In this document: positions 1 through 19,965 of the stretch, in pieces
Layout of the letters: each line of letters begins with the position of its first letter
How positions within the stretch are numbered: position 1 is the first letter of the stretch
Assembly (NCBI GenBank): GCA_029548025.1
Contig: JAKPOE010000010.1
Coordinates: 1 to 56,775 of the forward strand
Origin: Spirochaetota bacterium
GTDB taxonomy: Bacteria > Spirochaetota > UBA4802 > UB4802
DNA length: 56,775 bases
Direction: 5' to 3'
Position numbers and translations under genes: made by a program
The notes under the pieces: generated by a model
What the model saw: only the letters and a program-made list of their open reading frames with translations
Database searches by the model: none
What the model was told of the DNA's origin: nothing

Positions 1-381
1 CATCTTTTTATAAATGATAAGCTTTATAAAAACAACTATCGTTATTTTAAATTAGAAGTATTTGAATCAAAAAAAATGCTGGAGGAAAAACTATGCACAC
101 CCGTTGATACCTTTATATATCCTTTTGGTGTTGTTTCTGACATTGGTAAAAAAGCTCTGATTGAAGCAGGATATAGTTATGCATTTACTATCAAATGGGG
201 AAACACATCACTGCCAATAACCAGCAATAAGCTGGAAATACCACGATACATGTATAATCAAAATTGGAACGCCATAGCCAACGCCATTATTTATAAACGC
301 AAAAACCCGGCTACCCCTCATAAAGAGAGCGAAAAGATTCTTGTTTCTACCATGCCCCGGTTGAAAGGTACTCATCAATAG
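1..381 (+). CDS. Polysaccharide deacetylase, C-terminal part (5' end outside window)
   Basis: The frame is open from the first base and ends in TAG at 379-381, so only the last 126 codons are visible. The text around 'TPVDTFIYPFG' followed by 'ALIEAGYSYAFTI' is the usual C-terminal stretch of NodB-fold deacetylases: a conserved P-F-G strand, then a helix leading into 'Y..A.t'. Family role: removing N-acetyl groups from cell-wall or exopolysaccharide sugars. The metal-binding Asp/His residues would lie upstream and cannot be checked. The 3' end overlaps the convergent nfnB gene by 35 bases. Confidence 0.7.
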   Translation, partial: HLFINDKLYKNNYRYFKLEVFESKKMLEEKLCTPVDTFIYPFGVVSDIGKKALIEAGYSYAFTIKWGNTSLPITSNKLEIPRYMYNQNWNAIANAIIYKRKNPATPHKESEKILVSTMPRLKGTHQ

Positions 382-1777
382 CTTTAGCTGCCTTTCGTCC
401 TGCACCCATTGCCTGTATAACCGTGGCAGCACCGGTTACAATATCGCCGCCAGCAAAAACACCTATCTTGCTTGTCTTCATGGTTACGGGGTCAGCTATG
501 ATATTGCCTCGTTTGGTAGTATCCATCCCCGGCGTAGTCTTGGGTATCAAAGGATTTGGGCCGTTACCAATAGCAATAATGGCTACATCAATATCTATAA
601 TAAACTCAGAACCTTTAACGGGTATCGGGCTTCGCCTTCCAGAAGCATCAGGCTCACCTAATTCCATCTTCAGACACTCAACTGCTTTCACACGTCCTTT
701 TTCATCACCAATGAACTGTACAGGATTGGTCAAAAGTTTAAAGATAACGCCTTCTTCTTCAGCGCGCTCCACCTCTTCTACACGTGCTGGCATCTCAGTG
801 CGGGAACGTCGGTAAACAATATACACCTCCTTGCTTCCCAAACGCAGTGCAGTCCGTGCCGAATCCATGGCAACATTTCCACCGCCAAAAACTGCAACTT
901 TCTGCCCTTTGACAATGGGGGTATCATACTCCGGGAATTTATACGCCTTCATTAAATTTGACCGTGTTAAATACTCATTGGCACTATACACCCCCTGTAA
1001 ATTTTCACCGGGTATATCTAAAAATAATGGCAACCCCGCTCCTGTAGCTACAAACACAGCATCAAATCCCGTTGATAGTAGATCATTCACCGTTTCAGCC
1101 GTGCCTATTACCCTGCTTAGTTCAACAGTAACGCCCGCAGCTTTTAGGGCATCAATCTCATATTGAACAATATCTTTGGGAAGTCTGAACTCAGGAATCC
1201 CATACACCAGAACGCCACCAGCCTTATGCAATGCCTCAAAGATGGTAACATTGTATCCTATGCGTGCTAAATCACCGGCAGCAGTAAGCCCTGCTGGCCC
1301 GGAGCCAATGATTGCAACCTTTTTATTGGTATGGCTATCGCTCCTCTGAGCAACAAAATGTTCCTTCTCTCGTTCATAATCAGCAACATAGCGCTCCAGA
1401 TTGCCAATAGCAACAGCATCGCCTTTTTTTGCCAGAACACACAACTTTTCACATTGATCTTCCTGGGGGCATACCCTCCCGCATACTGCCGGTAATGAAT
1501 TGGTTTGCTTTATGGTAAAAAATGCCTCAAGAGGCTTTCCTTCTTTCAATGCCTTTATAAATCCTGGAATATTGATATTAACAGGGCACCCATCAATGCA
1601 GGTGGGGCGCTTACACTGCAAACATCGTGCTGCTTCTAACATTGCTGTTTTTTCATCATACCCTAACGGGACCTCATTGAAATTGCGGATACGATTTTTT
1701 GCATCCTGCTGAGGCATTTTCTGTCGTGGAATTTTATCTGCCATAGTACTGCTCCAGTTTGCATTTATGTTTTTCAA
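347..1777 (-). CDS. nfnB: NADPH-side subunit of bifurcating transhydrogenase (NfnB; GltD-like flavoprotein)
   Basis: 476 residues. The N-terminus carries cysteine runs that bind two [4Fe-4S] clusters (CLQCKRPTC..GCP near residue 55 and VCGRVCPQEDQCEKLC near 100). An FAD Rossmann motif (GSGPAGLTAAGDLA, about 160) and an NADPH Rossmann motif (FGGGNVAMDSA, about 300) follow. This is the architecture of the glutamate synthase small subunit and of NfnB. I prefer NfnB because the gene directly follows an NfnA-type FAD/[2Fe-2S] subunit, with 44 bases of overlap, and no glutamate synthase large subunit is nearby. Known role: with NfnA it couples NADH and reduced ferredoxin oxidation to NADP+ reduction, reversibly, in the cytoplasm. 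Homologues are often labelled gltA or gltD. Confidence 0.85.
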   Translation of the reverse strand: MKNINANWSSTMADKIPRQKMPQQDAKNRIRNFNEVPLGYDEKTAMLEAARCLQCKRPTCIDGCPVNINIPGFIKALKEGKPLEAFFTIKQTNSLPAVCGRVCPQEDQCEKLCVLAKKGDAVAIGNLERYVADYEREKEHFVAQRSDSHTNKKVAIIGSGPAGLTAAGDLARIGYNVTIFEALHKAGGVLVYGIPEFRLPKDIVQYEIDALKAAGVTVELSRVIGTAETVNDLLSTGFDAVFVATGAGLPLFLDIPGENLQGVYSANEYLTRSNLMKAYKFPEYDTPIVKGQKVAVFGGGNVAMDSARTALRLGSKEVYIVYRRSRTEMPARVEEVERAEEEGVIFKLLTNPVQFIGDEKGRVKAVECLKMELGEPDASGRRSPIPVKGSEFIIDIDVAIIAIGNGPNPLIPKTTPGMDTTKRGNIIADPVTMKTSKIGVFAGGDIVTGAATVIQAMGAGRKAAKAIDEYLSTGAW

Positions 1778-2576
1778 AGCTTTCCTTTTCCTGCTCTTTA
1801 TAGGTATTAAGCCTTTTCATAAGTTCATCAAAATCCACCAGATGAGCATCAAACTCAGGGCCATCAACGCAGGTAAATTGCTTTTTGCCATCAACCGTAA
1901 CCCTGCATCCGCCGCACATTCCGGTGCCATCCACCATTATGGAATTTAAGCTGACCAGTGTTTTCACCCCATACTGTTTGGTCATATCACTGACCGCCTT
2001 CATCATTGGAACCGGCCCAACAGCAACAACAATATCAACTTTCCCCCCATCAAGTATCGTTTTCAATTCATCGGTTACAAATCCTTTAACACCATGCGAC
2101 CCATCATCCGTAGTTACTATCATCTCATCACTTTTTGCTTTGAGTTCGTTTTCTAATATTAATAAATTTTTGTTGCGCGCTCCAATAATACTTATGAGAT
2201 AGTTACCTGCATCTTTCATTGCCACTGCAATTGGATACACAGCAGCAATTCCAATGCCACCACCAACGCAAACACAGGTACCATAGCATTGTATATCGGT
2301 AGGATGCCCCAATGGTCCTGCAACATTAAAAAGTTCCTCCCCCTTCTTTTTAAGCGATAGTTTATGGGTAGAGGTCCCCACAATCTGATAGTAAAGTGTG
2401 ATAGTTCCTGTAGCACTATCAGCATCAGCGATAGTAAGCGGGATACGTTCACCCACTTCATCAACAATAACTATTACAAATTGCCCTGCTTTTCTGTGTT
2501 TTGCAATATAGGGTGCTTCCACAATAGCTTTTCCTACATTGTCAGATATTTTTTCATTGGTTACTATCGTATACAT
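1734..2576 (-). CDS. nfnA: NADH/ferredoxin-side subunit of bifurcating transhydrogenase (NfnA)
   Basis: 280 residues, typical for NfnA and for sulfide dehydrogenase beta / dihydroorotate dehydrogenase electron-transfer subunits. An N-terminal FAD-binding beta-barrel is followed by an NAD-binding half (GGGIGIAAVYPIA, about residue 105). The C-terminus has the [2Fe-2S] cysteines GTGMCGGCRV...FTC (about 215-235). It is the first gene of the nfnAB pair, and its 3' end lies inside the start of nfnB, so translational coupling is likely. In the known complex this subunit carries the NADH site and the branch to ferredoxin. The pair fits an anaerobe that must balance ferredoxin, NADH and NADPH, and it matches the ferredoxin-type hydrogenase at 45-53 kb. 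Confidence 0.85.
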   Translation of the reverse strand: MYTIVTNEKISDNVGKAIVEAPYIAKHRKAGQFVIVIVDEVGERIPLTIADADSATGTITLYYQIVGTSTHKLSLKKKGEELFNVAGPLGHPTDIQCYGTCVCVGGGIGIAAVYPIAVAMKDAGNYLISIIGARNKNLLILENELKAKSDEMIVTTDDGSHGVKGFVTDELKTILDGGKVDIVVAVGPVPMMKAVSDMTKQYGVKTLVSLNSIMVDGTGMCGGCRVTVDGKKQFTCVDGPEFDAHLVDFDELMKRLNTYKEQEKESFEKHKCKLEQYYGR

Positions 2577-2846
2577 AATTCACTTCCATAATAAAGATAA
2601 TCAAACAATTGATATGCATAATGAAATATTGAACATGTCATGAACTTACTAGCAATCATCTGACCTTTGACAGACATAGTATATAGTATATCACATTCTA
2701 TTGATTAAAAAATAACTATCGCCAATACAATACTGTCACAAATACTCCCTGTCAAAAAGCATATACCAACACTGATGACTATACACCATTTGTTGCAGGC
2801 AAACAGTACACTATAATAGCTACACATGGTCAAGATATTTTTATAT
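2577..2846. other. Non-coding stretch upstream of nfnA
   Basis: AT-rich, with no open frame that resembles a protein. It must hold the nfnAB promoter (minus strand), but no convincing -35/-10 pair stands out. It ends at the left terminal repeat of the IS remnant. Confidence 0.5.
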
Positions 2847-2861
2847 AATCAGGCTGTCGAA
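2847..2861 (+). repeat. Left terminal inverted repeat of IS remnant
   Basis: AATCAGGCTGTCGAA; pairs with 3613-3627 with one mismatch (G against A at position 10). Confidence 0.7.
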
Positions 2862-2983
2862 ATAATGTACATAACAAGGATAGTATGCCATTAGTATACC
2901 GTAATCAAGCGACAAAAACAGGGAGAACGTGATGAGACGATTCAGGGAACCGCGTCATAGACCACTCGACGATAGGGAAGTTT

Positions 2984-3525
2984 TTGGTTCGTTTCACAAA
3001 CGAGCTTATAGAGATGTTTGTACAAACGGATAAGCTTGCCATTGAGAAGGGGCTGGCGAATTGTAAAGTATTGTCAATTGATTCGGTCAAGATACGGGCG
3101 AATGCGTCAAGCAAGAAGGACACGAGCATTGATGGTTTGAACCTGCTGGAAGACACCATTAAGGAGAAACTACCGAGATTCATGGATGATGTGGACCGAG
3201 ATGAGCGCAGGGATGAAGAAATTAAGGCGTTGCATCGTCAGGAGGCACGGGTAGCCGAGGCAAACAAGGAACTGCGGATGCTGGTTTTGCATCTCTTGAT
3301 AATTACGAAAAACTTGCTGCGATGAATCAGGAAGCATTGATACCTGACAGATGGTATGATGTTGACAGGCGTGGTGTTCAGAAGAAAGGAGCGTTTGATA
3401 CATGTCATTTCACCTATTGTCCTGAAACAAACTGGTATCAATGTCCCCATGGTATACCACTTTTTTTTCAGAATGAATTCGGACAATCACCCGAGATAAA
3501 AAGGAAGGGTATCGTGAAGCGATGA
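2984..3525 (+). pseudogene. IS1182-family transposase remnant
   Basis: Two reading frames carry adjoining parts of one transposase. The first (to about 3280) has 'GLANCKVLSIDSVKIRANAS' followed by a charged helix, the region of IS1182-type enzymes where 'dGTkIkANAS' is usual. The second (from about 3290, open to 3525) has 'LDNYEKLAAMNQEALIPD' and then 'FTYCPETNWYQCPHG', matching the later 'Y.t.e.lk.l.....yIpd' and 'F.yd...d.y.CP.G' region. A frame change lies near 3280. The N-terminal domain and the end of the catalytic domain are absent, so it cannot be active. Confidence 0.7.
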
Positions 3526-3612
3526 GGCTTGTTTTTTAAGCGATGCTATCTGGTAGAAAGTCCATTTGTTATATAGCAGTAAGGGGAAGTCAATAGTTTA
3601 AAAGTTAAAAAT

Positions 3613-3627
3613 TCGATAGCCTGATTA
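3613..3627 (-). repeat. Right terminal inverted repeat of IS remnant
   Basis: TTCGATAGCCTGATT; the reverse complement matches the left end at 14 of 15 positions. Confidence 0.7.
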
Positions 3628-3692
3628 AATAAATTTTATCAACCCCTATAGCCAAATTATTATGGAATAATAATCAATATATAGACTTAATT

Positions 3693-3941
3693 CTATACAA
3701 TTCCCCCACCCATCATCAATCGTATTGCTCCAAAAATTACTGCAATTATTGACATTACAAGACCTGCGGTAGCTTTCCCCTTTGTTTGCTTATTACTGCT
3801 TGCCATGGCAATGCCAGAAAGAATGATACCTAAAAAACCAAAAGGAATATTCACCCAATTCAACGCCCCTAAAAGGGGAATACATCCAAGCATTGTACCA
3901 AACAACGAAAGAATTCCCACAATAAATCCTGCTGTAGCCAT
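3693..3941 (-). CDS. Small two-helix membrane protein (DUF4190-like)
   Basis: 82 residues with two hydrophobic spans (about 3-35 and 58-78) around a basic linker 'MASSNKQTKGKATAGL'. 'AGFIVGILSL' at the start, 'GIILSGIAMA' in the middle and 'AGLVMSIIAVIFG' near the end are the hallmark pattern of DUF4190-type small inner-membrane proteins, whose function is unknown. A ribosome site (AGGAGGGTTAG read on the minus strand) precedes the ATG. It lies 32 bases downstream of the secreted protein gene at 3974-4801 on the same strand, so the two may be co-transcribed. Confidence 0.65.
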   Translation of the reverse strand: MATAGFIVGILSLFGTMLGCIPLLGALNWVNIPFGFLGIILSGIAMASSNKQTKGKATAGLVMSIIAVIFGAIRLMMGGGIV

Positions 3942-3973
3942 TAGCTAACCCTCCTAAAAAAATGATTTTAAAC

Positions 3974-4801
3974 TTATTTTAACCTTATGGTAATTTTCCT
4001 GATACCATATTCATATTCATACTCGATTCTTGATAAAACTCCCTGAAGAGGTGAAACCTCGCCTTTTTTCAATTTTATCACATCCTCTTCTTTTGAAAAG
4101 CTCTTAATTATATCAACAGGCACTATATTACGATTACTTGGATTATTTCCATCTTCATTGCTTATACCTTTAATATCAAGAATGCCGGTGGCATCTGAAT
4201 ATCCGTTAGTGCCGGCCTCTTTTTCCTCGCTCTGATCAGGCACCGGTACCTCGTAATAAGCATTATACAGTATTGATTTGTCATAACAACGCTCGCACAT
4301 ATTTAATTCCAGTACGAACGCTATTGACGAACCGAGATTGCTGAGCACGAAAGAAAACCACTGTTCATTATCAAACTGGTTATTCTTCTTAGCGGACTCA
4401 ACCATCTGCGAAAATTTATTTTTCCCCATCTTGGAAATGAGAAAATTAATGATTTTCTGCCGCCCAAATTCATTCAGCGTCTTAGACTCTTCTTGCCTTA
4501 CATCAATCAATTTTACAGATCGCATGCAGAACTGTTTACCCCTATACGCAGCGTTTATTCTATACAGTTCTTTCGCATACTGCTTTTCCTTGTATTCCCT
4601 TTGTACCTCCGTATCAGATTCATCATAAATATACTTTTCGACTCCATTTAACAGCGACCATATGTATCTGGAATCAGATTCCCAGTCTGATATATAAGTA
4701 CTCCTCTGCTGAATATTTTCATTGGCATGCAGTGAAAAGCCAAATGGAAGGAGAGATAAAATGGCAATTTGGCAAATATTTCTAATTAAACCGAATTTCA
4801 T
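3974..4801 (-). CDS. Predicted periplasmic protein of unknown function
   Basis: 275 residues that I do not recognise. Residues 1-26 form a signal peptide (basic start, hydrophobic 'ICQIAILSLLPFGFSLHA', cleavage likely after HA-NA). The body is charged and mostly helical in the first two thirds, with a 'CERCYD' pair that could form a disulphide or bind metal. A low-complexity linker rich in Glu, Gly, Asn and Ser (about 190-225) leads to a basic tail ending 'GIRKITIRLK'. There is no transmembrane segment after the signal. The partner gene downstream encodes a small membrane protein. Confidence 0.6.
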   Translation of the reverse strand: MKFGLIRNICQIAILSLLPFGFSLHANENIQQRSTYISDWESDSRYIWSLLNGVEKYIYDESDTEVQREYKEKQYAKELYRINAAYRGKQFCMRSVKLIDVRQEESKTLNEFGRQKIINFLISKMGKNKFSQMVESAKKNNQFDNEQWFSFVLSNLGSSIAFVLELNMCERCYDKSILYNAYYEVPVPDQSEEKEAGTNGYSDATGILDIKGISNEDGNNPSNRNIVPVDIIKSFSKEEDVIKLKKGEVSPLQGVLSRIEYEYEYGIRKITIRLK

Positions 4802-4896
4802 TCATATATTATTTCATAGAATTGCTATTTTGTCAACAACTAAATTAATCAAATATTTATATCAGAAGATATAAAAAATAGCCGTTTACCACATGG

Positions 4897-4923
4897 AAAA
4901 GGCAGCCGGGAAACCGCCTTTTT
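4897..4923. terminator. Hairpin, probable terminator
   Basis: AAAAGGC (4897-4903) pairs with GCCTTTTT (4916-4923) around a GC-rich loop and would give a run of T on either strand. It lies 65-90 bases beyond the stop of the broken DUF4143 gene (minus strand), whose terminator it may have been. Confidence 0.45.
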
Positions 4924-4987
4924 GTTGGACGAAATTTTGCTGGTCATCCGCATATCGTTCTACAAAATCACATTCCGCTTGCACCCG

Positions 4988-5353
4988 TTAGCTTTTGCTG
5001 CTTCCCTCCGCGAGCGCTGAAACAAATTCATACAGCGCCGCGACGCGGACCGTTTTCGTGAGCATGTAGGTTTCCTTCACGGGAGCGATGATCCACGCTT
5101 CCCGTATTTCAAGATCGTTCATGGCGATTGCCAGTCCTTTTCCTGTTTCTGGTGATGCCGACGCTTTGCACTACACCGCGACCAGTCTTCTCCCCCTGCC
5201 CAGCACCATGTCTATCTCGGTTCCGGATGATGTCCGATAGAATACAGCCTCCCGGCCGGGCAGCGAGCTGATCACATTTTCCACCACAAGCCCCCAGGAA
5301 GCGCCGAACACCGGATACCATACAGCCATTAATACGGGTTTACTGCTGGACAT
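4988..5353 (-). pseudogene. Remnant of a DUF4143 AAA-ATPase (C-terminal part, frameshifted)
   Basis: Read on the minus strand, 5353-5174 gives 'GLVVENVISSL', then 'FYRTSSGTEIDMVLGRGRRL'. This is the signature C-terminal strand region of ATP-binding proteins with a DUF4143 domain ('E..v...L....FYRt..G.EvDlv.e'). After a frame change near 5170 the text continues as 'SPETGKGLAIAMNDL', 'AWIIAPVKETYML' and ends at a stop at 4988-4990, again matching the family. The ATPase half is missing. Its base composition is visibly richer in G+C than the flanking genes, which suggests acquired DNA. Confidence 0.65.
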
Positions 5354-5689
5354 TGTTCTCCTCGGGGAGCAGTCCCTCGGATTTCGGTATCGGGGAAAGT
5401 TATTCTCGATGACTCATCGGCGGTTCACTTTCATTTATCTCCTTTAGATTCACCGGGTCTATTTGCATGGATCGTTTTGCCCCTTTGGTTCAGTACCACC
5501 GGGACTACCCCCGACAGCACCAAAGGGGGGGTTTAGAGACTGTTTCCGGAAAACCCTCTCTGGCAGTTCATCGTTCCCTTGACTCTGCCATTATGCATAA
5601 AGATTGCGCTGAATCTTCTTGACATTCTTCCTACTAACTGCTTCACTCTATATAGGCAACCCTGATTCAGCTTCAGGGCACACGACTTC
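5354..5689. other. GC-richer non-coding stretch of the accessory island
   Basis: No plausible gene. It contains an inverted repeat (5480-5528, listed separately) and leads into the first attC-like site. Together with the DUF4143 remnant it is the most G+C-rich part of the window. Confidence 0.5.
5480..5528. repeat. 10-bp inverted repeat with 29-base loop
   Basis: CCCCTTTGGT (5480-5489) is exactly complementary to ACCAAAGGGG (5519-5528). The loop is itself rich in runs of C and G. It could be the end of an old mobile element, an attC arm or a structured RNA; I cannot tell which. Confidence 0.5.
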
Positions 5690-5787
5690 ATATAACTAAG
5701 CAAAGCCGCTGCGGTGCTCGGCCTCCGCGCCTATGATATGAAGACGGCCGCTCCGGCAAAAACTTCAGCTATGCTGAGACGTTATAC
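5690..5787 (+). other. attC-like recombination site 1
   Basis: About 98 bases running from ATATAAC (R''-like, 5690-5696) to GTTATAC (R'-like, 5781-5787). The outer 7-mers are complementary at 6 of 7 positions. The interior is GC-rich and imperfectly palindromic (CCGC..GCGG, GGCC..GGCC). The 3' half 'GGCAAAAACTTC.GC.ATGC' closely resembles the 3' half of site 3 at 8350-8382. Size and layout fit an integron attC, and the following gene begins 39 bases after it. Confidence 0.6.
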
Positions 5788-5825
5788 GACATTTTTACAA
5801 TTTTTAACTAAAAGGAGGAAACCAC

Positions 5826-6674
5826 ATGAAAAAAATTCTATTACCTTTAATTATTACTGTTTTTATTCATACCAATATTTACTCTTATGATTTATTAAAA
5901 ATTGGTGATAATGTAACAAATTATATTAAAACTAATCCGGTTAAATATAAACTGACAAATCAAAAATTATCAAACTGGCCAGAAGGTGTTGTAACACTAT
6001 TAGCTTATGACACAAAAGTTGATGGCAAATCACCAATAATAGTTTTTGCATTAGATAAATATCCCATTGGTGTTTTACAGGGTACAAGTCCAAATGCCTA
6101 TTATATATTTGATATTGATGGAGATGGTATACTAGACACAAAAACAGATAAGGGAATTGTTCCATTTTGGGTTGTCTATGCTAATTCAAAAAATAAATCA
6201 AAAAATGATAATATTACATCTATTTTTAATTTAGTATATGAAAGTTTTCAATCTGATGAAGGACCATATATAAATCAGAAATTCAAAGAATCAATTAACA
6301 AATTGTACGAATTTAATAAAAACATAAATATAGAAAATCGAGACTTAGCATATTTATTTTTGTTTTACCAATTATATAATCAATATTTTCCTGAACAGTC
6401 ATTAAAGTGTTTAGATCTTTTAACAAAAGAATACATATCTAGATTTAATAAAATTCATCCCATTTTATTATTATATAAAGCTGAAACATTAATTAATCTT
6501 AAGCAAGAGCAAGATGCAAAGAAAATTATTGCAGAGTTAAGAAAAGCAGATCCAAATTTCATACCTGCAAAAGCTTATGAATATAGACTAGAAGTTGATA
6601 AAGAAAAAGCCAAAATATTATTAAATAATTTAAAGGAAAACCATAAAAATCACTGGATAGTGAAACAATTGTAA
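5826..6674 (+). CDS. Secreted protein with DxDxDG motif, probable cassette gene
   Basis: 282 residues, no family recognised. Residues 1-20 are a signal peptide. 'DIDGDGILD' (96-104) is a calcium-loop-like motif of the EF-hand/dockerin type. From about residue 150 the chain is helical, with TPR-like repeats ('LAYLFLFYQLYNQYFPEQSLKCL', then 'HPILLLYKAETLINLKQEQDA'), ending without a membrane segment. A strong ribosome site (AGGAGG) sits 7 bases before the ATG. The gene is very A+T-rich, fills the space between two attC-like sites and points away from the first, as an integron cassette gene should. Confidence 0.65.
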   Translation: MKKILLPLIITVFIHTNIYSYDLLKIGDNVTNYIKTNPVKYKLTNQKLSNWPEGVVTLLAYDTKVDGKSPIIVFALDKYPIGVLQGTSPNAYYIFDIDGDGILDTKTDKGIVPFWVVYANSKNKSKNDNITSIFNLVYESFQSDEGPYINQKFKESINKLYEFNKNINIENRDLAYLFLFYQLYNQYFPEQSLKCLDLLTKEYISRFNKIHPILLLYKAETLINLKQEQDAKKIIAELRKADPNFIPAKAYEYRLEVDKEKAKILLNNLKENHKNHWIVKQL

Positions 6675-6681
6675 AAACGGC

Positions 6682-6808
6682 GTATAACACAGCATATGCG
6701 TAATTGCCCTAAATTCAAAACATAAAATATTTATTGACATAAAGATCAATCTATTAAATAAATTTAACGTGTTCCATGCTACTATGCATTATACTGGTAA
6801 CATTATAT
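6682..6808 (+). other. attC-like recombination site 2 (degenerate 3' half)
   Basis: It begins GCGTATAACACAGCATATG eight bases after the stop of the preceding gene. That string matches the start of site 3 (GCGTACAACAAAGCTTATG) at 16 of 19 bases. The 3' boundary is weaker: TGGTAACATTATAT near 6795-6808 resembles 'CGGTAACGTTGGG' of site 3. The middle is AT-rich and poorly palindromic, so the site may be decayed. Confidence 0.45.
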
Positions 6809-6887
6809 GCAATGGCAACATAACTTTGGCCGGGCGTCCGTGCCCGCCTTGTGGGGAATAAAATTTAACCTGCCGGAGGAGAATACC

Positions 6888-8201
6888 ATGAAACACGTAA
6901 ATTTTTTTCTTTTAATTATTTTGGTTGTCGTAAATCTTACCGGTTGTAGTAATGATTTATTTCTTATTGATATTGGTAAATATGGGTATATTGATAAATC
7001 TGGTAAAATTGTAATCAATCCTCAATTTGAAGAAGCTTATGATTTTAGCAAGGAAGGTCTTGCTTTAGTCAAACTATCTGATAAATATGGGTATATTGAT
7101 AAATCTGGTAAAATCGTAATCAATCCTCAATTTGAAAAAGCTTATAGTTTTGGTGAAGAAGGGCTTGCTGTAGTTATGCTGAATAAAAAATATGGATATA
7201 TTGATAAATCTGGTAAAATTGTAATCAATCCTCAATTTGAAAAAGCTTATGATTTTAGCAAGGAAGGGCTTGCAGCAGTTAAAATAAACCAAAAATGGGG
7301 ATATATTGATAAATCGGGTAAAATTGTAATCAATCCTCAATTTGAAGATGCTTATAGTTTTGGTAAAGAAGGGCTTGCAGCAGTTAAAATAAACCAAAAA
7401 TGGGGATATATTGATAAATCGGGTAAAATTGTAATCAATCCTCAATTTGAAGATGCTTATAGTTTTAAGGAAGGTCTTGCTTTAGTCAAACTATCTGATA
7501 AATATGGGTATATTGATAAATCTGGTAAAATCGTAATCAATCCTCAATTTGAAGATGCTTATAGTTTTGGTGAAGAAGGGCTTGCTATAGTCAAACTATC
7601 TGATAAATATGGATATATTGATAAATCTGGTAAAATTGTAATCAATCCTCAATTTGAAGATGCTTATGATTTTGGTGAAGAAGGGCTTGCTCTAGTCAAA
7701 TTATCTGATAAATATGGATATATTGATAAATCTGGTAAAATTGTAATAGATACACAGTTTTATTATGCAGAAGAATTTAAAAATGGTTTAGCACTGGTAG
7801 GTGGTGAAAAATATGGTTATATCAACAAATCTGGAAAATATGTATGGTCATATGATAAAGGAGCAGATATTTATTTAGGCAAAGACATTGTTGGTTGGCA
7901 CATAACTAAAAAAACAGATATTTTTAATAGCGATGATTATTTTATAATGATACTAGATAATCATTATAAGTTTATTGGTGTTACAAAAATAGAATTACGA
8001 ATAAGTGTTGTAAAAGATGCTGGTGTTGAACAACCATTCCGTATAATTTCATATCCAATTGATTCAAGAGCCCCTATGTGGGGGTTTAATAAAAAAAGTA
8101 TTACAGCTGGAGCTTTTGTCGGTAATAGAAAAGGTAAATTTGAATTATTGATAGTTGGAGATAATAAAACCTTAGCTTCTAAAATTTTTGAGGTCAGATA
8201 A
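6888..8201 (+). CDS. Lipoprotein made of WG (KWG) repeats
   Basis: 437 residues. I place the start at the ATG at 6888 because GGAGGAG lies just upstream and the product then opens with a clean lipoprotein signal ending LTGC (Cys20). From residue 31 there are eight consecutive repeats of about 35 residues of the form 'K(Y/W)GYIDKSGKIVINPQF..AY.F..EGLA.VK', plus a ninth partial copy. The fifth copy is one residue short. This is the WG/KWG beta-repeat first described in Leptospira; its function is unknown. A unique domain of about 115 residues closes the protein. Predicted to be membrane-anchored and outside the cytoplasm. It sits between attC-like sites 2 and 3. Confidence 0.8.
   Translation: MKHVNFFLLIILVVVNLTGCSNDLFLIDIGKYGYIDKSGKIVINPQFEEAYDFSKEGLALVKLSDKYGYIDKSGKIVINPQFEKAYSFGEEGLAVVMLNKKYGYIDKSGKIVINPQFEKAYDFSKEGLAAVKINQKWGYIDKSGKIVINPQFEDAYSFGKEGLAAVKINQKWGYIDKSGKIVINPQFEDAYSFKEGLALVKLSDKYGYIDKSGKIVINPQFEDAYSFGEEGLAIVKLSDKYGYIDKSGKIVINPQFEDAYDFGEEGLALVKLSDKYGYIDKSGKIVIDTQFYYAEEFKNGLALVGGEKYGYINKSGKYVWSYDKGADIYLGKDIVGWHITKKTDIFNSDDYFIMILDNHYKFIGVTKIELRISVVKDAGVEQPFRIISYPIDSRAPMWGFNKKSITAGAFVGNRKGKFELLIVGDNKTLASKIFEVR
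6978..7808 (+). repeat. Eight tandem 105-base repeats inside the WG-repeat gene
   Basis: Each unit starts AAATATGG or AAATGGGG and encodes one WG repeat. Neighbouring copies are almost identical in DNA, including synonymous positions; copies 4 and 5 share long identical runs. The fifth unit is 102 bases. This points to recent expansion or ongoing homogenisation by slippage or recombination. Confidence 0.85.
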
Positions 8202-8272
8202 AATATTAAATTTATTACTTGCTTTTCGCCGTCATGGCTCAAAGCAAAAAAGTCTTGATGTTTTGCCACTGC

Positions 8273-8382
8273 GTACAACAAAGCTTATGTGCTGCGCTTA
8301 CTGTCGTTCGCTTGGGCTTCGCCACATTTTAACCTTCGCTATCGCTACGGCAAAAACGTCGCATACGCCGGTAACGTTGGGC
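8273..8382 (+). other. attC-like recombination site 3
   Basis: About 110 bases from GTACAAC (8273-8279) to GTTGGGC (8376-8382), the latter a fit to the attC R' consensus GTTRRRY. The inner part contains many short complementary arms (GCGAAG/CTTCGC, TGGCGAAG-type). The 3' half shares the pattern 'CGGCAAAAAC.TC.GC' and 'ACGTT' with site 1. It lies between the WG-repeat gene and the 88-residue gene. Confidence 0.6.
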
Positions 8383-8425
8383 ATGATTTTTGAATAATTT
8401 CATTGAACTCGGGGAGGTTATATCT

Positions 8426-8692
8426 ATGCTACTTCCTGATCCACAAACATGTATTAATAAAATTAATGATTTCAACCATGGAATCACTCAACAAAGAACT
8501 GCTCGTGATAATTGTGATTATATAACACTATTCCAATTGATTGTAAATAATATTTCTAATAATAATTCAATACCAATTTCATGCAATTTAATTAGAATGC
8601 TTGGTTTATTTCAAGCCTATAGAAATCAGCCAGCCCAAAAAAATTTAAATTTTATTAGTAATTTATTAAATGAATTAGGTTCATCATACTAA
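8426..8692 (+). CDS. Small protein of unknown function, probable cassette gene
   Basis: 88 residues, not recognised. I start it at the ATG at 8426 because GGGGAGG lies 8 bases upstream; an earlier in-frame start would fall just after the attC-like site and lacks a ribosome site. The chain is soluble, Asn/Ile-rich and probably helical, with two cysteines (CINKIND..., ISCNLI) and no signal peptide. It directly follows attC-like site 3. No further attC-like site is seen after it, so it would be the last cassette of the array. Confidence 0.6.
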   Translation: MLLPDPQTCINKINDFNHGITQQRTARDNCDYITLFQLIVNNISNNNSIPISCNLIRMLGLFQAYRNQPAQKNLNFISNLLNELGSSY

Positions 8693-8768
8693 ATAATCGA
8701 TACTATTTACTTTACCACTGACTATTTTCACAATTACAGTCCTGCTACAGCTACATTATATAGAATAG

Positions 8769-8799
8769 TTTACAAATGACATATATATTATACTATAAT
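8769..8799 (+). promoter_or_regulatory. Possible promoter of the PEP-synthase-like gene
   Basis: TTTACA (8769-8774) and TATAAT (8794-8799) with a 19-base spacer; a TATACT overlaps. A good ribosome site (AGGAG, 8816-8820) follows, 7 bases before the ATG at 8828. Confidence 0.35.
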
Positions 8800-8827
8800 A
8801 ATCATCCTTACTATCAGGAGATCTATA

Positions 8828-11416
8828 ATGGATACTATAAATAAAGCAAGCACCGGACTCCCATGCTTAGACAAAATTGTAAACAACCTCATTATGGGTG
8901 ATAATGTAGTGTGGCAGGTTGATACCATTGCTGATTATAAAACATTTGTTGATCCTTTTGTTTCAAAGGCACTTTCAGAAGGTAGAAATTTGAATTATAT
9001 CCGCTTTGCAGAGTTTCCTCCCCTCCTCTTTGAACAGCCGGGAATAAAAATACATTATCTCAATGCACATGAGGGCTTTGAAAGCTTTTCAAAACGAATT
9101 TATACCATTATTAACAGGGAAGGTGAGAATGCATATTATATATTTGATAGTCTTTCTGAACTTCAATCAGCATGGGCAACCGATCTCATGATAGGGAATT
9201 TCTTTGTCATTACATGCCCATATCTTTATGAATTAAACGCTGTTGCATATTTTTCTTTATTGCGCAATAGCCACTCATTTAAAACAATAGCTCGTATTCG
9301 CGATACCACACAATTACTCATTGATGTATACACATGCAATGGCGATTGCTACATACATCCCCTGAAGGTTCAAAATCGCTATTCCCCAACCATGTTCTTC
9401 CCTCACAAAAAAAATGCAGACTATTTTACTGCAATTACCCGAAGTGATGATGTCACCACATTCATATCCCATATACAGCAAACAAGCTTAGAAAAAACAC
9501 AAAGGAACCTTGATTTCTGGGATAGGCTTTTTCTTAAAGCTGAAATGTTACTAGAATTAAACGAGGACCCCACCAAAAAACAACAGATGATTGAACAGCT
9601 ATGCAAGGTAATAATTGGACGGGAGGAGCGTTTACTTACCTTAGCCGCCAATATCTTTACCCTGGAGGACCTTATTGCAATCAAAAACAGAATGATTGGG
9701 ACAGGTCATATAGGTGGAAAAGCAGCGGGTATGCTCATTGCCCGCCGTATTTTACATAGTGATAACAGAATGCAATGGAATGATATTGTAGAACCCCATG
9801 ACTCATTTTACATAGGTTCAGATGTTTTCTATACCTATATTGTTCAAAACGGGTGGTGGAAGTTATTCATGGAACAAAAAACTCAAGAAGGATACTTCAC
9901 TGTAGCAAAAGAAATTGCTCAACAAATGTTGCATGGCATTTTTACCGATGACATCAAGGAGCAATTTCAGCAGATGATTGAATATTTTGGACAATCTCCC
10001 ATTATTGTCCGTTCATCAAGCCTTCTGGAAGATTCTTTTGGTAATGCATTTGCTGGAAAATATGAAAGTATATTTCTTGTTAATCAGGGTTCTCCCGCTC
10101 AACGGTATCAAGCTTTTATTGATGCAGTACGTCAAATTTATTCCAGCACCATGAATGAAGATGCACTTGTGTACCGGCTCCAGCGAGGGCTTCATACAAT
10201 GAACGAACAGATGGCACCTCTGGTACAACGGGTATCCGGCACTCACCGTGGCAATTATTTCTTTCCTGATATAAGTGGTGTAGGATTTTCACATAATACC
10301 TATGTATGGAAAAAAGAGATGAAACCTGAATCAGGGATGATCCGTCTTGTTATTGGTCTTGGTACACGAGCTGTCAACCGTGTTGAAGGTGATTATCCTC
10401 GCATAGTTGCTCTTGACGATCCACGCTCCAAACCCCTTTATGATTTTAAAGACGTACGGCGATTTTCACAACACAATGTAGATGTTCTTAACATAACAAC
10501 CAATCAAGTAGAAACCATACAGATGGACGATCTATTCAACATTCAAGATCTCAATCTTCCAATGCACCTTTTAGGAATAAGGGATTATGAAGCTGAACAA
10601 ACTATTAAAAATATGAATGGCGAACAAAAAGAATATTGGGTCGTTACTTTTGATGAACTATTAATGCACACTGATTTTACCAGTAACATTAAAACAATCT
10701 TACAAACTATCCATAATAGATATCAATACCCTGTCGATATTGAGTTTACCGTAAATTTTAATAAAGAAGAGGGGTATTACATCAACATATTGCAATGCAG
10801 GCCCAATCAGATAAAAGGATTGGGAAAAAAAGTGAAATTACCTGAAGATATACCCGGCGATCATATCTTTTTTACCTCCCGGGGTAACTTCCTGGGGGGC
10901 AGTATAGTTCAGCCTATCAAGCGAATAATCTATGTAGATCCGTATCTGTATAACTCACTTTCAATTTCCCAAAAATATGATGTGGCACGCACTGTAGGCA
11001 AATTAAACAAGGCAATACAAGATCGTGAAGAAATGCCAGCATTGCTCATTGGGCCGGGAAGATGGGGCACAACTACACCTTCATTAGGTGTTCCTGTTAG
11101 ATTCGCTGAGATAAATAACATTAAAGTACTGGTTGAACTTGCGTTGATCAACGAAAATATAATGCCTGAACTTTCATTTGGGACTCATTTTTTTCAGGAT
11201 CTGGTAGAAACCGATATTTTTTATGTAGCATTATTTTATGGTATAAGCAACGTTCTTTATCATCAAAACTTTCTTGAGCAATTCCCCGATATTTTTACTA
11301 AACTTCTACCTGATTCTCAATATAATCACGTTATCCAAGTTTTTGATCTAAAAGAACACGATGTAGAACTTATGGCTGATATCACCACCCAGAAAGTACT
11401 ATGTTTTATGAGTTAA
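8828..11416 (+). CDS. PEP/pyruvate-binding (PPDK N-terminal) domain protein with KaiC-like head
   Basis: 862 residues. Residues about 1-200 read like a RecA/KaiC fold without its P-loop: 'STGLPCLDKIVNNLIMGDNV' corresponds to 'GipgLDelLgGGi..G', and 'YYIFDSLSEL' to a Walker B strand. From about 290 comes the ATP-grasp domain of pyruvate phosphate dikinase/PEP synthase ('GTGHIGGKAAGM', then 'SPIIVRSSSLLEDS'). A conserved tail has 'LLIGPGRWGTTTP' and 'FGTHFFQDL'. The phosphohistidine swivel domain (GG.T.HA) and the PEP-binding TIM barrel of true PEP synthase are absent. It therefore probably binds ATP and phosphorylates or transfers something else; the substrate is unknown. Stand-alone gene. Confidence 0.75.
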   Translation: MDTINKASTGLPCLDKIVNNLIMGDNVVWQVDTIADYKTFVDPFVSKALSEGRNLNYIRFAEFPPLLFEQPGIKIHYLNAHEGFESFSKRIYTIINREGENAYYIFDSLSELQSAWATDLMIGNFFVITCPYLYELNAVAYFSLLRNSHSFKTIARIRDTTQLLIDVYTCNGDCYIHPLKVQNRYSPTMFFPHKKNADYFTAITRSDDVTTFISHIQQTSLEKTQRNLDFWDRLFLKAEMLLELNEDPTKKQQMIEQLCKVIIGREERLLTLAANIFTLEDLIAIKNRMIGTGHIGGKAAGMLIARRILHSDNRMQWNDIVEPHDSFYIGSDVFYTYIVQNGWWKLFMEQKTQEGYFTVAKEIAQQMLHGIFTDDIKEQFQQMIEYFGQSPIIVRSSSLLEDSFGNAFAGKYESIFLVNQGSPAQRYQAFIDAVRQIYSSTMNEDALVYRLQRGLHTMNEQMAPLVQRVSGTHRGNYFFPDISGVGFSHNTYVWKKEMKPESGMIRLVIGLGTRAVNRVEGDYPRIVALDDPRSKPLYDFKDVRRFSQHNVDVLNITTNQVETIQMDDLFNIQDLNLPMHLLGIRDYEAEQTIKNMNGEQKEYWVVTFDELLMHTDFTSNIKTILQTIHNRYQYPVDIEFTVNFNKEEGYYINILQCRPNQIKGLGKKVKLPEDIPGDHIFFTSRGNFLGGSIVQPIKRIIYVDPYLYNSLSISQKYDVARTVGKLNKAIQDREEMPALLIGPGRWGTTTPSLGVPVRFAEINNIKVLVELALINENIMPELSFGTHFFQDLVETDIFYVALFYGISNVLYHQNFLEQFPDIFTKLLPDSQYNHVIQVFDLKEHDVELMADITTQKVLCFMS

Positions 11417-11655
11417 ACTAATACCATTTTCATACTATTGTTTAGCTAAAAACGCTTGATTATATTTCTATTAGCCTCATGTCAACTGTACTGTCACCAA
11501 CCATTTTTTTTAATAAACATCATGTTATAAAAAAATATTATTGACAATTATATCAATTGTTTAGTGTGTTCATTTCCATATATTTGGCATGTTTTGATGA
11601 TTCATCATTATCTATAAGCAATGGTTATCTTTAATATCATACAGGAGGCATTACA

Positions 11656-13014
11656 ATGTCAGTAATATCAGAAGTAATAGACAAGGTTAAAAGGCAGGAT
11701 TCAGAGCAAAAAGAATTTATTCAAGCAGTTCATGAGGTTCTGGAAACACTTGAACCAACTGTTCAAAAACATCCCGAATTTGTGAAGGCAAAAATCTATG
11801 AACGAATTGTTGAACCAGATAGAGTAATTATATTTAGAGTACCATGGGTTGATGATAATGGTAATGTCCATGTTAATAGAGGTTTCCGCGTTCAGTTTAA
11901 CAACGCCATAGGACCATATAAAGGTGGTTTGCGATTCCACCCTTCAGTCAATTTGGGGATTATAAAATTCCTTGGATTTGAACAAATATTTAAAAACTCC
12001 CTTACAACGCTACCTATGGGTGGCGCAAAAGGGGGATCTGATTTTGACCCAAAAGGAAAATCAGATATGGATGTCATGCGTTTTTGCCAGTCTTTCATGC
12101 GCGAACTATACCGACATATTGGTCCTGACACTGATGTACCAGCAGGTGATATTGGTGTAGGAGCCCGTGAAATAGGATTTATGTTTGGCTATTATAAAAA
12201 AATACGGAATGATCATACTGGAGTGTTAACCGGGAAAGGGCTTGAATATGGCGGAAGCTTGCTTAGACCAGAAGCAACAGGATATGGTGCAACCTATTTT
12301 GCAGCAGAGATGTTAAAAACTGTTGGAAAAGAAATTAAAGGAATGACTGTAGCCGTCAGTGGCTCCGGCAATGTAGCACAGTATACCATAGAAAAGGTTA
12401 CACAACTTGGCGGAAAGGTTATTTCATGCAGCGATTCAAATGGAACAATCATTGATGAAGAAGGCATAACTCCAGATAAATTAGCATTTCTCATGGAATT
12501 GAAGAATGTTCGCCGCGGTCGTGTTAAAGAATATGCCGAAAAATATAAAAATGCTCATTATTTTGAAGGTAAATCAGTGTGGGATGTTATTAAAGAGCAG
12601 GGTATCAAAATTAGTGTGGCATTCCCTTCAGCAACAGAAAATGAAATAGATGGCAAGCATGCCGAAGCACTTATCAAAAATGGATGTATCTGCGTTTCTG
12701 AAGGAGCAAATATGCCTTCAAATCTGGACGCAATCAAGGTATATCGTGAACACAATATCCTCTTTGCACCTGGCAAAGCAGCAAATGCTGGCGGTGTTGC
12801 TACATCTGGATTGGAGATGTCTCAAAATAGCTTACGGTTATCATGGACACGAGAAGAGGTTGATAATCGACTACAGATTATCATGAAAAGCATTCACAAA
12901 AGTTGTCTGGATGCCTCAGAAGCTTATGGCAAAAAAGGGGATTATCTCACCGGTGCAAACATTGCAGGCTTCTTAAAGGTTGCCAAAGCAATGGTAGCCT
13001 ATGGCATAGTATAA
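11656..13014 (+). CDS. gdhA: Glutamate dehydrogenase (NADP-type)
   Basis: 452 residues, the usual length for the hexameric bacterial enzyme. It has the glutamate-binding 'KGGLRFHPSVNLG' (about residue 89), the catalytic lysine in 'PMGGAKGGSDFDPKG' (about 125) and a dinucleotide fold with 'VAVSGSGNVAQYTIEK' (about 235). Reaction: 2-oxoglutarate + NH4+ + NAD(P)H to glutamate, in the cytoplasm. The N-terminal extension and motif set are those of the NADP-linked class. An AGGAGG ribosome site precedes the ATG, and a TTGACA at 11541 may be the -35 of its promoter. A terminator hairpin follows. Confidence 0.92.
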   Translation: MSVISEVIDKVKRQDSEQKEFIQAVHEVLETLEPTVQKHPEFVKAKIYERIVEPDRVIIFRVPWVDDNGNVHVNRGFRVQFNNAIGPYKGGLRFHPSVNLGIIKFLGFEQIFKNSLTTLPMGGAKGGSDFDPKGKSDMDVMRFCQSFMRELYRHIGPDTDVPAGDIGVGAREIGFMFGYYKKIRNDHTGVLTGKGLEYGGSLLRPEATGYGATYFAAEMLKTVGKEIKGMTVAVSGSGNVAQYTIEKVTQLGGKVISCSDSNGTIIDEEGITPDKLAFLMELKNVRRGRVKEYAEKYKNAHYFEGKSVWDVIKEQGIKISVAFPSATENEIDGKHAEALIKNGCICVSEGANMPSNLDAIKVYREHNILFAPGKAANAGGVATSGLEMSQNSLRLSWTREEVDNRLQIIMKSIHKSCLDASEAYGKKGDYLTGANIAGFLKVAKAMVAYGIV

Positions 13015-13035
13015 ACACTGTCCTATAAAAACAAA

Positions 13036-13060
13036 TAGAGCAGGATACAACCCTGCTCTA
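13036..13060. terminator. Rho-independent terminator between gdhA and acyl-CoA synthetase gene
   Basis: TAGAGCAGG (13036-13044) pairs perfectly with CCTGCTCTA (13052-13060) around a 7-base loop. A T/A-rich tail lies on both sides, so it may serve both convergent genes. Confidence 0.75.
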
Positions 13061-13083
13061 TTAAAATAAAAATAATAATATTT

Positions 13084-14994
13084 TTATGCGTACATTTTAT
13101 TAATTTCATCTTTAAACACTTCAACTATCACCCGCTTTTTAGTTTTTTGAGTTGGTGTTAGCATCCCATTAGATTCAGTAAACCGCTGATTCAAAATGGT
13201 ATAATTCTTAATCTGTTCAAACTTTTCCAGATGTTTATTTGCTTCTTTTACATCGTTATCAATCAATTCTTTTAAGCGATAGTTGTTAATGAAATCATCC
13301 CCAACCTGTACGCAAAGCTGCATGCCACCAACATCTTCATATACCAGTTTCGACTCATCATATGTAATACCTTCTCGCTTAAACAGCGCCATGAAGTTGG
13401 CAAAATTTGGTACAATTAAGGCAGTAATAAATGGCTTTTCATCACCTACAAGAAATATTTGTTCTACCCAGTTACTTGTAGAAAATAAATTCTCAATCTT
13501 GGCAGGTGCAACATTTTTCCCAATAGAGGTACAGATTATCCCTTTTTTCCGCTCAATGAATTTAAAATAACCATCGCTTGATAATTCTACAATATCCCCT
13601 GTCTTAAACCAACCATCTTTGGTAAAAGTTTCTTTCGTTTCTTTTGGTTTATTGAGATAGCCTTTGAAAATACCAGCACCTGAAAGTTCCAGTTCACCGT
13701 CTTTTGAAACACGGCATTTGCTCCCATTTGCCTCTTTTCCCATATACCCTGGTTTACATGCTGTTATTGGATTGAGTATCGCAGCATTGAAACTTTCTGT
13801 TGAACCATACCCTTCTATGACTGCCAATCCCAGCGCATAGTAAAATCGCAAAAGATCAGGCGAAATTGCAGCGCTTGCCGAAAATGAATGATGGAATCTT
13901 TTACCAAACAAACTACGCACCTTTGCAAAAATTTTATCAGCAATGGAATATTGAATCTTAAGCCATAGTGGCAGCCTGGACTTTAGATCAAAATTCGGAT
14001 GCATATTATAACACCCATTTTCATCCTCACGATATTTCAAAGCCTGTAATCCTACATTCAATGCCCAATTAAATAATTTTTTTTGTAAAGGGTTCTCAGC
14101 CATCTGCTGCTGCATGGTTATATATATTTTTTCATACAGCCGTGGAACACAATTAATCCATGTTGGATTGTACTTTTGCATATCCTCAATAAGGGTTGCT
14201 GGCTTGTCGGCATAACATATTAACGACCCTTTACTGATAGCCAGCCATTGACATGAACCGCGGTCAAAAACATGCGAAAGTGGAAGATAACACAGTGTAA
14301 CATCATTCTCATTAACATCAAAATTATACCTTTGAAAATATTCCGTTGTTCCCTCCAACCGTGATGAACCACACCAATGGGTTAAAATAACACCCTTCCC
14401 CTGTCCTGTTGTACCCGATGTATAAAGAATAGTAAACCAATCATCTAATGTTACACTATCTTTGCGTTTATTATATTTTTTATAATTTGCCTGATTATTT
14501 CGCCATTCCCGTCCCATGGCAATACAATCTTTAATACCGAATACCTTCTTTTTATCACCCTTAAATGACATATCCATCACTATTATTGTTTTAAGGCTTT
14601 TCAAATCTTTTTCTAGTTCCTTAACCTGTTTAAGAAGTGTTTTATCGCCAACAAAAACAATAGTACATCTGGAATCATTCATAATATATTTAACTTCATT
14701 ATTTGAAAGCGTAGGAAAAATTGTAATACTTGCACCACCTGCACATGCAATTGCGATATCAACCTGTGTCCACATATAGCTTGTTGGAGCTAAAATAGCA
14801 GCTCGCCCTTTATAAGGAAAACCTAATTTCATTAATGCACATGCAATATCCTCAATCCGTTCTTTAAGTTCAGCATAAGTAAATAGCCCGTTGTTATCAT
14901 CATACAGCTCTTTATTAAACTTTTGTGCTGGCCTGTCCGGTAACCTATCACATGTATCATAAAAATACCGGACCATTGTTTTCAGTTCGCCCAT
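13084..14994 (-). CDS. Long-chain acyl-CoA synthetase (AMP-forming)
   Basis: 636 residues. The ANL-family P-loop 'ILYTSGTTGQGKGVILTH' is at about 190, the adenylate motif 'YGSTES' near 395, and the 'GWFKTGDIVEL' hinge motif near 465; the C-terminal catalytic lysine region is present. Reaction: fatty acid + ATP + CoA to acyl-CoA + AMP + PPi. Close in type to the bacterial FadD15-like group and paralogous to the gene at 21163-23049. It stands alone, convergent with gdhA, with alaS upstream on the same strand across a 92-base gap. Chain-length preference cannot be read from sequence. Confidence 0.88.
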   Translation of the reverse strand: MGELKTMVRYFYDTCDRLPDRPAQKFNKELYDDNNGLFTYAELKERIEDIACALMKLGFPYKGRAAILAPTSYMWTQVDIAIACAGGASITIFPTLSNNEVKYIMNDSRCTIVFVGDKTLLKQVKELEKDLKSLKTIIVMDMSFKGDKKKVFGIKDCIAMGREWRNNQANYKKYNKRKDSVTLDDWFTILYTSGTTGQGKGVILTHWCGSSRLEGTTEYFQRYNFDVNENDVTLCYLPLSHVFDRGSCQWLAISKGSLICYADKPATLIEDMQKYNPTWINCVPRLYEKIYITMQQQMAENPLQKKLFNWALNVGLQALKYREDENGCYNMHPNFDLKSRLPLWLKIQYSIADKIFAKVRSLFGKRFHHSFSASAAISPDLLRFYYALGLAVIEGYGSTESFNAAILNPITACKPGYMGKEANGSKCRVSKDGELELSGAGIFKGYLNKPKETKETFTKDGWFKTGDIVELSSDGYFKFIERKKGIICTSIGKNVAPAKIENLFSTSNWVEQIFLVGDEKPFITALIVPNFANFMALFKREGITYDESKLVYEDVGGMQLCVQVGDDFINNYRLKELIDNDVKEANKHLEKFEQIKNYTILNQRFTESNGMLTPTQKTKKRVIVEVFKDEINKMYA

Positions 14995-15086
14995 AATGCC
15001 CCCTTGAATATATTAATTATAATATACATATTTATATATCACGACCAGATGGTATTTCAAAAATTAATGACAAATTAAAAAATATG

Positions 15087-17723: not shown

Positions 17724-17994
17724 AATGCTGAATTCCTCTCTCTCAATAATAAAATAGTGTAGTGATTATCTTGTTGAACCTTTCCCTGTAACAATGCATG
17801 GTTGTTTTTGTATCTCATTGTTGTATACTTGTAATCAATTTCATAAAATCAATATTATTATAAATTGTGATTAACCCTCTGCATCGGCTACTCAATCAAT
17901 AACATAACAACATATCAAATGAGAACAATATAAAAAATTGGTGCTACAATTTCAATATTATTTATTTCCACAAAACGATTGTATCATGGATTGC

Positions 17995-18636: not shown

Positions 18637-18669
18637 GAAAGCTCACCATACTATTAATATTTAACAATA

Positions 18670-18697
18670 AAAAAGGATGCTCAGCGGCATCCTTTTT
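18670..18697. terminator. Terminator after rpsI
   Basis: GGATGC (18675-18680) and GCATCC (18687-18692) form a stem with a 6-base loop, flanked by AAAAA and TTTTT. It sits between rpsI and recX, 26 bases past the rpsI stop, and could end the rplM-rpsI transcript. Confidence 0.75.
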
Positions 18698-18722
18698 GTA
18701 AAGAAAAATTGTATTCTCATTA

Positions 18723-19115: not shown

Positions 19116-19157
19116 AGTACGTACCTCGTATTTATTTATACCTATAGATTTATCTTA

Positions 19158-19604: not shown

Positions 19605-19691
19605 TGTAGCCTCTCACACTTCGATGTTAAATGTTAATAGAAAATTTCTAATAAAAATTATATAGATTATAAGCGTAGCACGCTATATATA

Positions 19692-19927: not shown

Positions 19928-19965
19928 AACAACTGCCTTAAAATAATAATATTTATAACTTTAAA

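Follow-up and report, generated by a model that had tools for sequence, protein, structure and literature searches.

The window analysed here (contig JAKPOE010000010.1 of an uncultured Spirochaetota bacterium, 56,775 bases) carries an array of three genes and three attC-class recombination sites with no recombinase in view. A tyrosine recombinase without the I2 region of the integron integrases (IntI) probably captured the cassettes of this array; in relatives, such a recombinase is of a HARP type (A type) or of a second, B type. In related genomes, the counted sites of the same class lie on a fixed side and strand of such recombinases, which lack the I2 region. The hairpin stems of this class differ from those of IntI-linked sites, and a sister genome is empty at the position of the window array.

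Three attC-class sites in the window

The original prediction, made from the sequence alone, described three same-strand genes split by three sites with attC features, and our reading of the sequence agrees. Direct comparison likewise gives 16 of 19 identical positions between the 19-mers of sites 2 and 3, and each intersite interval holds one gene, in line with the one-gene cassettes proposed. We compared the window with two covariance models that contain zero window sequence: R1, trained on 16 sites of genomes G001 (Spirochaetia bacterium UBA2205) and G005, and R2, trained on 43 sites from relatives. R1 matches the 56,775 bases in only three places, which are the three spacers (Table 1); in 80 other loci, 1.27 Mb in total, it has no match with E <= 5. 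R2 finds exactly the same three sites, with one stray match of 15.4 bits among 1.16 Mb of 58 other loci. Both models thus support an attC-type cluster. The inverted R''/R' core with its GTT crossover is present in sites 1 and 3, and site 2 reads ATT; this site lacks the crossover G and is probably inactive.

The site class shows covariation. Alignment A1 holds 16 sites (13 from G001 and three from G005, one with a degenerate R'; one site lacking R'' and partial sites were omitted), and in the R''/R' and L''/L' stems 14 of 18 pairs vary on both sides, with 85% of cells paired. When the partner strand is slid, pairing falls to 20–43%. In addition, the alignment of the 5' leader of window cassette 2 with the first cassette of G041 begins at the TT right past the crossover point (G/TT), and comparable leaders come after sites in G044 (76% over 87 bases) and G004 (86% over 51). 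As a separate observation, some cassette leaders contain, by eye, a GC-rich hairpin whose loop resembles CGTCCGTG, at 6828–6848 of the window and downstream of the recombinase at three other loci (L171, L173 and L184).

Could the three spacers be inverted repeats that arose by chance, or members of a repeat family without a role in recombination? Minimum-energy folding of the loosely cut window sites is unremarkable (bottom-strand z of −2.13, −0.38 and −0.52), a result that speaks against the original prediction and would fit a chance origin. However, the exact coincidence of the model matches with the three spacers, the covariation and a common cassette leader that starts at the crossover point make such an origin hardly credible. 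A first, loose structural attC scan was dropped since it gave no separation between the window (75) and its shuffles (60–95).

A cluster of attC sites lacking integron integrases (CALIN) is defined by two or more attC sites that share an orientation within a few kb, with no integron integrase nearby. Here, the clade model places three + strand sites within 2.7 kb, and tblastn with two IntI, two HARP-type and two Xer proteins finds no recombinase in the window at E <= 1e-4, as the original prediction had it. The window array therefore resembles a CALIN in its tandem attC-like sites, one-gene cassettes, single orientation and lack of an integrase nearby; it differs in that its site class is mostly unbroken in the L stem and in that relatives have a partner recombinase other than IntI.

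Hairpin architecture of the site class

Related sites occur elsewhere in UBA2205, in clusters on contigs C72, C58 and C9, and model sites are found in 24 of the 46 genomes of the order under a strict filter. We compared hairpins by the same scan and the same thresholds in two sets, 20 IntI loci and 51 HARP-class loci; the HARP-class set combines recombinase loci with arrays from those genomes. The HARP-class loci yield 47 candidates: 27 with an unbroken L stem of at least eight pairs, 14 bulged and six neither. By contrast, among the 113 candidates at the IntI loci, no L stem reaches eight unbroken pairs, and every candidate is bulged within the first ten. Shuffled DNA gives 3–14 candidates, of which 0–2 are unbroken and 3–12 bulged. 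The Fisher p value for unbroken stems (27/47 versus 0/113) is 3e-18, which is very strong rather than exact because the sites of one array are not independent.

PMC2727003 describes the first extrahelical base of attC as fully invariant and as indispensable for the choice of strand. At the level of the class studied here, the extrahelical L-stem bases of canonical attC sites are mostly missing; the sites of the window are too degraded for a verdict. An earlier wording, that no extrahelical base occurs at all, was softened, as several HARP-class sites have a step of one or two bases on the other arm after 9–11 pairs. The spacer also differs: it is even in IntI-linked sites, with 2–4 bases per side in most rows, and uneven in HARP-class sites, typically 1/5 or 3/5. 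In predicted folds of chosen examples (12 HARP-class, six IntI-class and three window sites), the HARP-class sites are mostly branched at the tip, whereas the IntI-linked sites form a single hairpin with bulged bases. A palindrome-like CTTCGACAAGCTCAGC, or a near variant, lies in the terminal loop of several UBA2205 sites, and a variant is present in one G005 site (loci L111, L112, L113 and L116).

Recombinases of the A and B types

The HARP-type and B-type recombinases of the order are 295–390 amino acids long. A HARP-type recombinase is found in 88 of 392 genomes of the phylum, and a true IntI above cut-off in two of the 46 genomes of the order. The IntI-specific (I2) stretch is missing from all 21 HARP/B rows of alignment A2 and present in its two true IntI rows. 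In agreement, TIGR02249 matches all seven HARP/B proteins tested in two pieces and under cut-off, and both IntI proteins in one piece. The integrase with an I2 region that marks a canonical integron is thus found neither in the window nor among the linked recombinases of relatives. A short-motif test for IntI was discarded, having recovered just four of 18 IntI.

The NCBIfam search covered seven HARP/B and two IntI proteins, and NF040815 is the top match for six of the seven. Among 14 HARP/B proteins, the HARP-like N-terminus exceeds the Pfam cut-off in three, is weaker in seven and is unseen in four. PF22823 is listed for many relatives, and our own domain scan did not report PF22823. The AlphaFold2 model of the attC-linked protein P0020 (predicted local distance difference test score 86.5) has a tyrosine-recombinase fold. 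Its best PDB profile match is IntI4 (PDB 2a3v, 5.4e-61), which is also the top Foldseek match; relative to IntI4, the A and B types are without I2, and the A type has an extra HARP-like N-terminal part. VIA-align, which covered residues 86–346 of the model with the HARP-like part outside, gives the best Z of 23.3 to PDB 4a8e (root-mean-square deviation 8.7, 257 aligned). The HARP/B proteins therefore also resemble the archaeal XerA-like recombinases (PDB 4a8e and 5hxy; NF040815).

Two trees were built. The first has a branch (85/96) that sets the A types apart from all other rows. The second, from which rows X_L108, B_L295 and A_L287 were dropped, does not; with Xer as the far group, it joins the B types to IntI as sisters (97/94), with the A types below. 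Given the length of the Xer branch and the removal of these three rows, the branching order is uncertain, and we regard the placement of the B type beside IntI as a lead rather than a result. Alignments A4 and A5 hold 14 of 21 rows and 58 of the 120 proteins listed, respectively.

Position and orientation of sites and recombinases

We examined 40 HARP/B loci, 21 from the order and 19 chosen among genomes with the type (top A-type scores, some B types, G031 and G033). Counted model sites lie near 15 of them, or near 13 of 38 without G031 and G033, which were fetched because their contigs were already known to carry sites. The ten A-type loci among these have 23 counted sites, every one downstream of the recombinase gene and on its strand; the five B-type loci have 11, every one upstream and on the opposite strand. 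Each of the 34 counted sites (matches of at least 22.6 bits were kept) thus has the side and strand of its type, with one non-fitting match at L178 omitted. Two matches that fit, one cut by the contig end at L277 and one of 20 bits at L172, were also left out.

An attI-like motif, GTT[AG][TG][AG][CT]G, occurs within 230 bases downstream of 14 of 29 A-type genes, where 1.14 would be expected; a 30th gene, L285, with 35 downstream bases, was excluded. The motif was defined after 15 of these stretches had been viewed, and it is present in ten of the 15 viewed genes and in four of the 14 unviewed (about 0.55 expected). In five of the 14 motif-bearing genes, which are close relatives of one another, it lies 73–74 bases past the gene end. 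In G041, the first cassette begins at the GTT of the attI-like site. No attI-like site is known in the window. On the divergent side of four of ten B-type genes stands a CAATTT-GTT element, together with a promoter-like TTGAC box (by eye); three of these four elements had suggested the motif.

These arrangements bear on whether the HARP-type gene is instead a mobile element that targets attC hairpins in the manner of a group IIC intron, and not the integrase of the array. The family is large and widely spread, and some copies have no array in the available flanking DNA, as such an element would allow. We nevertheless judge it improbable: the orientation of the gene is fixed relative to the sites, the attI-like motif recurs at 73–74 bases with a G041 cassette beginning at its GTT, and the B type diverges from the array with its promoter-like box directed at the array.

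The same data bear on whether the window holds an ordinary CALIN, with canonical attC sites whose IntI lies elsewhere or has been lost and with the nearby HARP-type recombinases as unrelated passengers. CALINs are common and widespread according to PMC9668308, the window sites have attC-like R and L boxes, and a true IntI does occur in the order. However, that is so in just the two genomes, and the HARP-class stem is unlike that of IntI-linked sites. The fixed side and strand would also not be expected of passengers. Moreover, the 20 true IntI loci of the phylum have no convincing model site (best E 0.84), and the two of the order have none at E <= 1, with only a few hundred bases available on one side. 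We therefore hold an ordinary CALIN to be unlikely, though it is the strongest competitor of capture by a recombinase without I2. The original prediction of an orphan attC cluster stands as far as the cluster is concerned, and its integron integrase probably does not, since the site class differs from that of canonical IntI. Because this class is tied to recombinases without the IntI-specific region, the integrase absent from the window is probably not an IntI. Genome G009 (L165 and L188) has a canonical IntI and a HARP-type recombinase together, and there model sites adjoin the HARP type only.

The sister genome

The 862-residue PPDK_N-domain protein encoded at 8828–11416 is 97% identical in amino-acid sequence to its counterpart in UBA2205 (locus L001; the best 80 of 113 relatives were used), which upholds the spirochaete lineage predicted for the window. 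The flanking DNA aligns with UBA2205 at 92–94% identity (blastn). At the position of the array, 122 non-aligning bases in UBA2205 replace a 5.8-kb stretch of the window, and this island, of which the three-gene array is the right part, was therefore gained in one lineage or lost in the other. A fixed order of the same genes and spacers in homologous genomes, which would speak against a cassette array, is not what we find, as UBA2205, the one close genome compared, is without the whole stretch.

UBA2205 has two broken recombinase genes adjoining arrays, on C58 and C72. Both were first read as IntI from a TIGR02249 match, and the HARP type proved the better fit (185 versus 94 bits for the C58 fragment; 88 versus 73 bits for C72). 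The C58 fragment is the sole match of UBA2205 to the HARP-type profile at E <= 1e-60, and an attI-like motif lies 143 bases downstream of it. The sister genome shows only broken copies, beside arrays, which suggests decay of the recombinase in the lineage of the window. The window array is thus likely an orphan, mobile only with a recombinase supplied in trans.

A proposed mechanism of cassette capture

From their position, orientation and decay pattern and from the site class, we infer that the A- and B-type recombinases are the integrases of the attC-class arrays and work without I2. An A-type gene is followed by its array on the same strand, and a B-type gene diverges from its array; in the proposed scheme, an attI-like site ending in GTT would stand after the A-type gene or before the B-type gene. 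A cassette would consist of a gene and an attC-class hairpin, and would enter at the attI-like site between G and TT. The hairpin has attC-like R and L stems, with L mostly unbroken, an uneven spacer (1 or 3 versus 5 bases) and a tip predicted to be branched. Given the lack of I2 and of the usual extrahelical bases, the uneven spacer and the branched tip would likely set the choice of strand, and the A type might read the folded strand with the help of its HARP-like N-terminal domain. This role for HARP is an inference, as is the mobility of such arrays at present.

Several observations weigh against capture by a recombinase without I2. An intact recombinase may be present elsewhere in the genome of the window, outside the 56,775 bases. 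Site 2 is the weak one of the three: its 16.8 bits with R1 are close to a 16.3-bit stray at an IntI locus, and it is better separated with R2 (21.8 bits versus 15.4 for the best stray). Besides the unremarkable folding energies, the window sites fold poorly, less cleanly than the chosen HARP-class examples. R1 favours the class of decayed A types, because it was mostly built from contigs with such genes. No counted site is found at 25 of the 40 HARP/B loci; 18 of these have less than 1 kb of sequence on the array side, and seven have 1.4–9.8 kb there (L168, L170, L176, L277, L284, L286 and L288). The match omitted at L178 (9199–9237, 39 bases, 30.2 bits, E 6e-4) lies just upstream of an A-type gene and does not fit. 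The HARP label is weak: two of the three proteins above cut-off were picked because their listing named HARP, and HARP is named for two of the 120 proteins among the matches listed. The predicted template-modelling score of P0020 is only 0.53. Lastly, 7,879 of 8,000 candidates are A-type relatives at E <= 1e-40, and in so huge a family many members may do something else.

Whether the I2-less HARP-domain and B-type recombinases, moving cassettes with unbroken-L, uneven-spacer and branched-tip hairpins, amount to a second integron architecture is to us an evenly balanced question. From sequence comparison, they likely provide a second way of moving gene cassettes. Treponema reverse chromosomal integrons belong to the same phylum and, according to PMC3607928, have a recombinase transcribed toward attI and the array, like the A type. 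However, they use a true IntI, and the spirochaete IntI-linked sites in our comparison have bulged L-stem bases. In PMC7790495, I2 is described as necessary for cassette capture, I2 and single-strand recombination as exclusive to integron integrases, and intermediates as lacking. Our literature search, in which the sources were accessible in part, turned up no account of attC arrays with I2-less recombinases. As the tree places the B type as sister to IntI with the A types below, capture from folded DNA may predate the I2 helix, and the missing intermediates of integron evolution may be living enzymes. Natural arrays that depend on recombinases without I2 would open the origin of integrons to direct testing. 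Detection of integrases by the IntI-specific domain is in use (PMC8352920), and some orphan clusters may then be platforms whose integrase escapes it.

Cassette genes and other features of the island

Table 1. Features of the array and the surrounding island (window coordinates).
Feature	Position	Strand	Details
Island without counterpart in UBA2205	2850..8679	.	blastn: L001 6892-9730 = window 1-2849; L001 9853-21114 = window 8680-19932
DUF4143 protein gene fragment	5171..5353	-	PF13635 C-terminal part, 20.9 bits, below cut-off
Group II intron 5' remnant	5452..5683	-	RF01999 38.3 bits over 5452-5577; 5' end read from sequence
attC-class site 1	5690..5787	+	R'' ATATAAC 5690-5696, R' GTTATAC 5781-5787; R1 30.0 bits, E 1.1e-4; R2 38.2 bits, E 4.9e-7
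Cassette gene 1, 282 aa	5826..6674	+	Start resembles a signal peptide (by eye); TPR-like matches weak, under the cut-off
attC-class site 2, degenerate	6682..6808	+	R'' GTATAAC 6682-6688, R' ATTATAT 6802-6808; R1 16.8 bits, E 0.098; R2 21.8 bits, E 0.0042
Cassette 2 5' leader	6803..6846	+	93% over 44 bases to first cassette after attI-like site in G041
Cassette gene 2, 437 aa	6888..8201	+	WG beta repeats, PF14903 364.5 bits, 8 stretches; lipoprotein-like start (by eye)
attC-class site 3	8273..8382	+	R'' GTACAAC 8273-8279, R' GTTGGGC 8376-8382; R1 57.5 bits, E 7.9e-11; R2 56.8 bits, E 1.7e-11
Gene 3, 88 aa, near-orphan	8426..8692	+	1 protein found among 5.8 billion

As would be expected of cassette genes, genes 1 and 3 have few relatives in a search of 5.8 billion proteins, which depends on shared words: gene 1 has nine at E <= 1e-3, the best being the window's own. 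Gene 3 has no detected site downstream and may be truncated, since its 3' end is at the island junction near 8680. Distant relatives of gene 1 (26–32%; L296–L301) occur in six of the 392 spirochaete genomes, three of which bear IntI (G064, G075 and G157).

The group II intron remnant lies just past the bottom-strand hairpin of site 1, in the orientation opposite to the cassettes, with its GTGTG 5' end six bases from R''. PMC7923331 describes group IIC-attC introns as inserting after the bottom-strand attC hairpin and opposing the cassettes. The remnant is like them in placement, opposing orientation and GTGTG 5' end; however, their target is TTGT/T at R'', and the junction here is GAAGTC/GTGTG on the minus strand. 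Only the 5' piece is present, with no reverse transcriptase seen, and the sister arrays have no Rfam match at the gathering score, hence no additional group II intron. The left part of the island includes a transposase-like fragment at 2984–3525 (by eye; 2984–3325 has no Pfam match). Further along the window, an AbiEii-type nucleotidyltransferase gene is located at 28626–29201 (PF08843, 38.7 bits).

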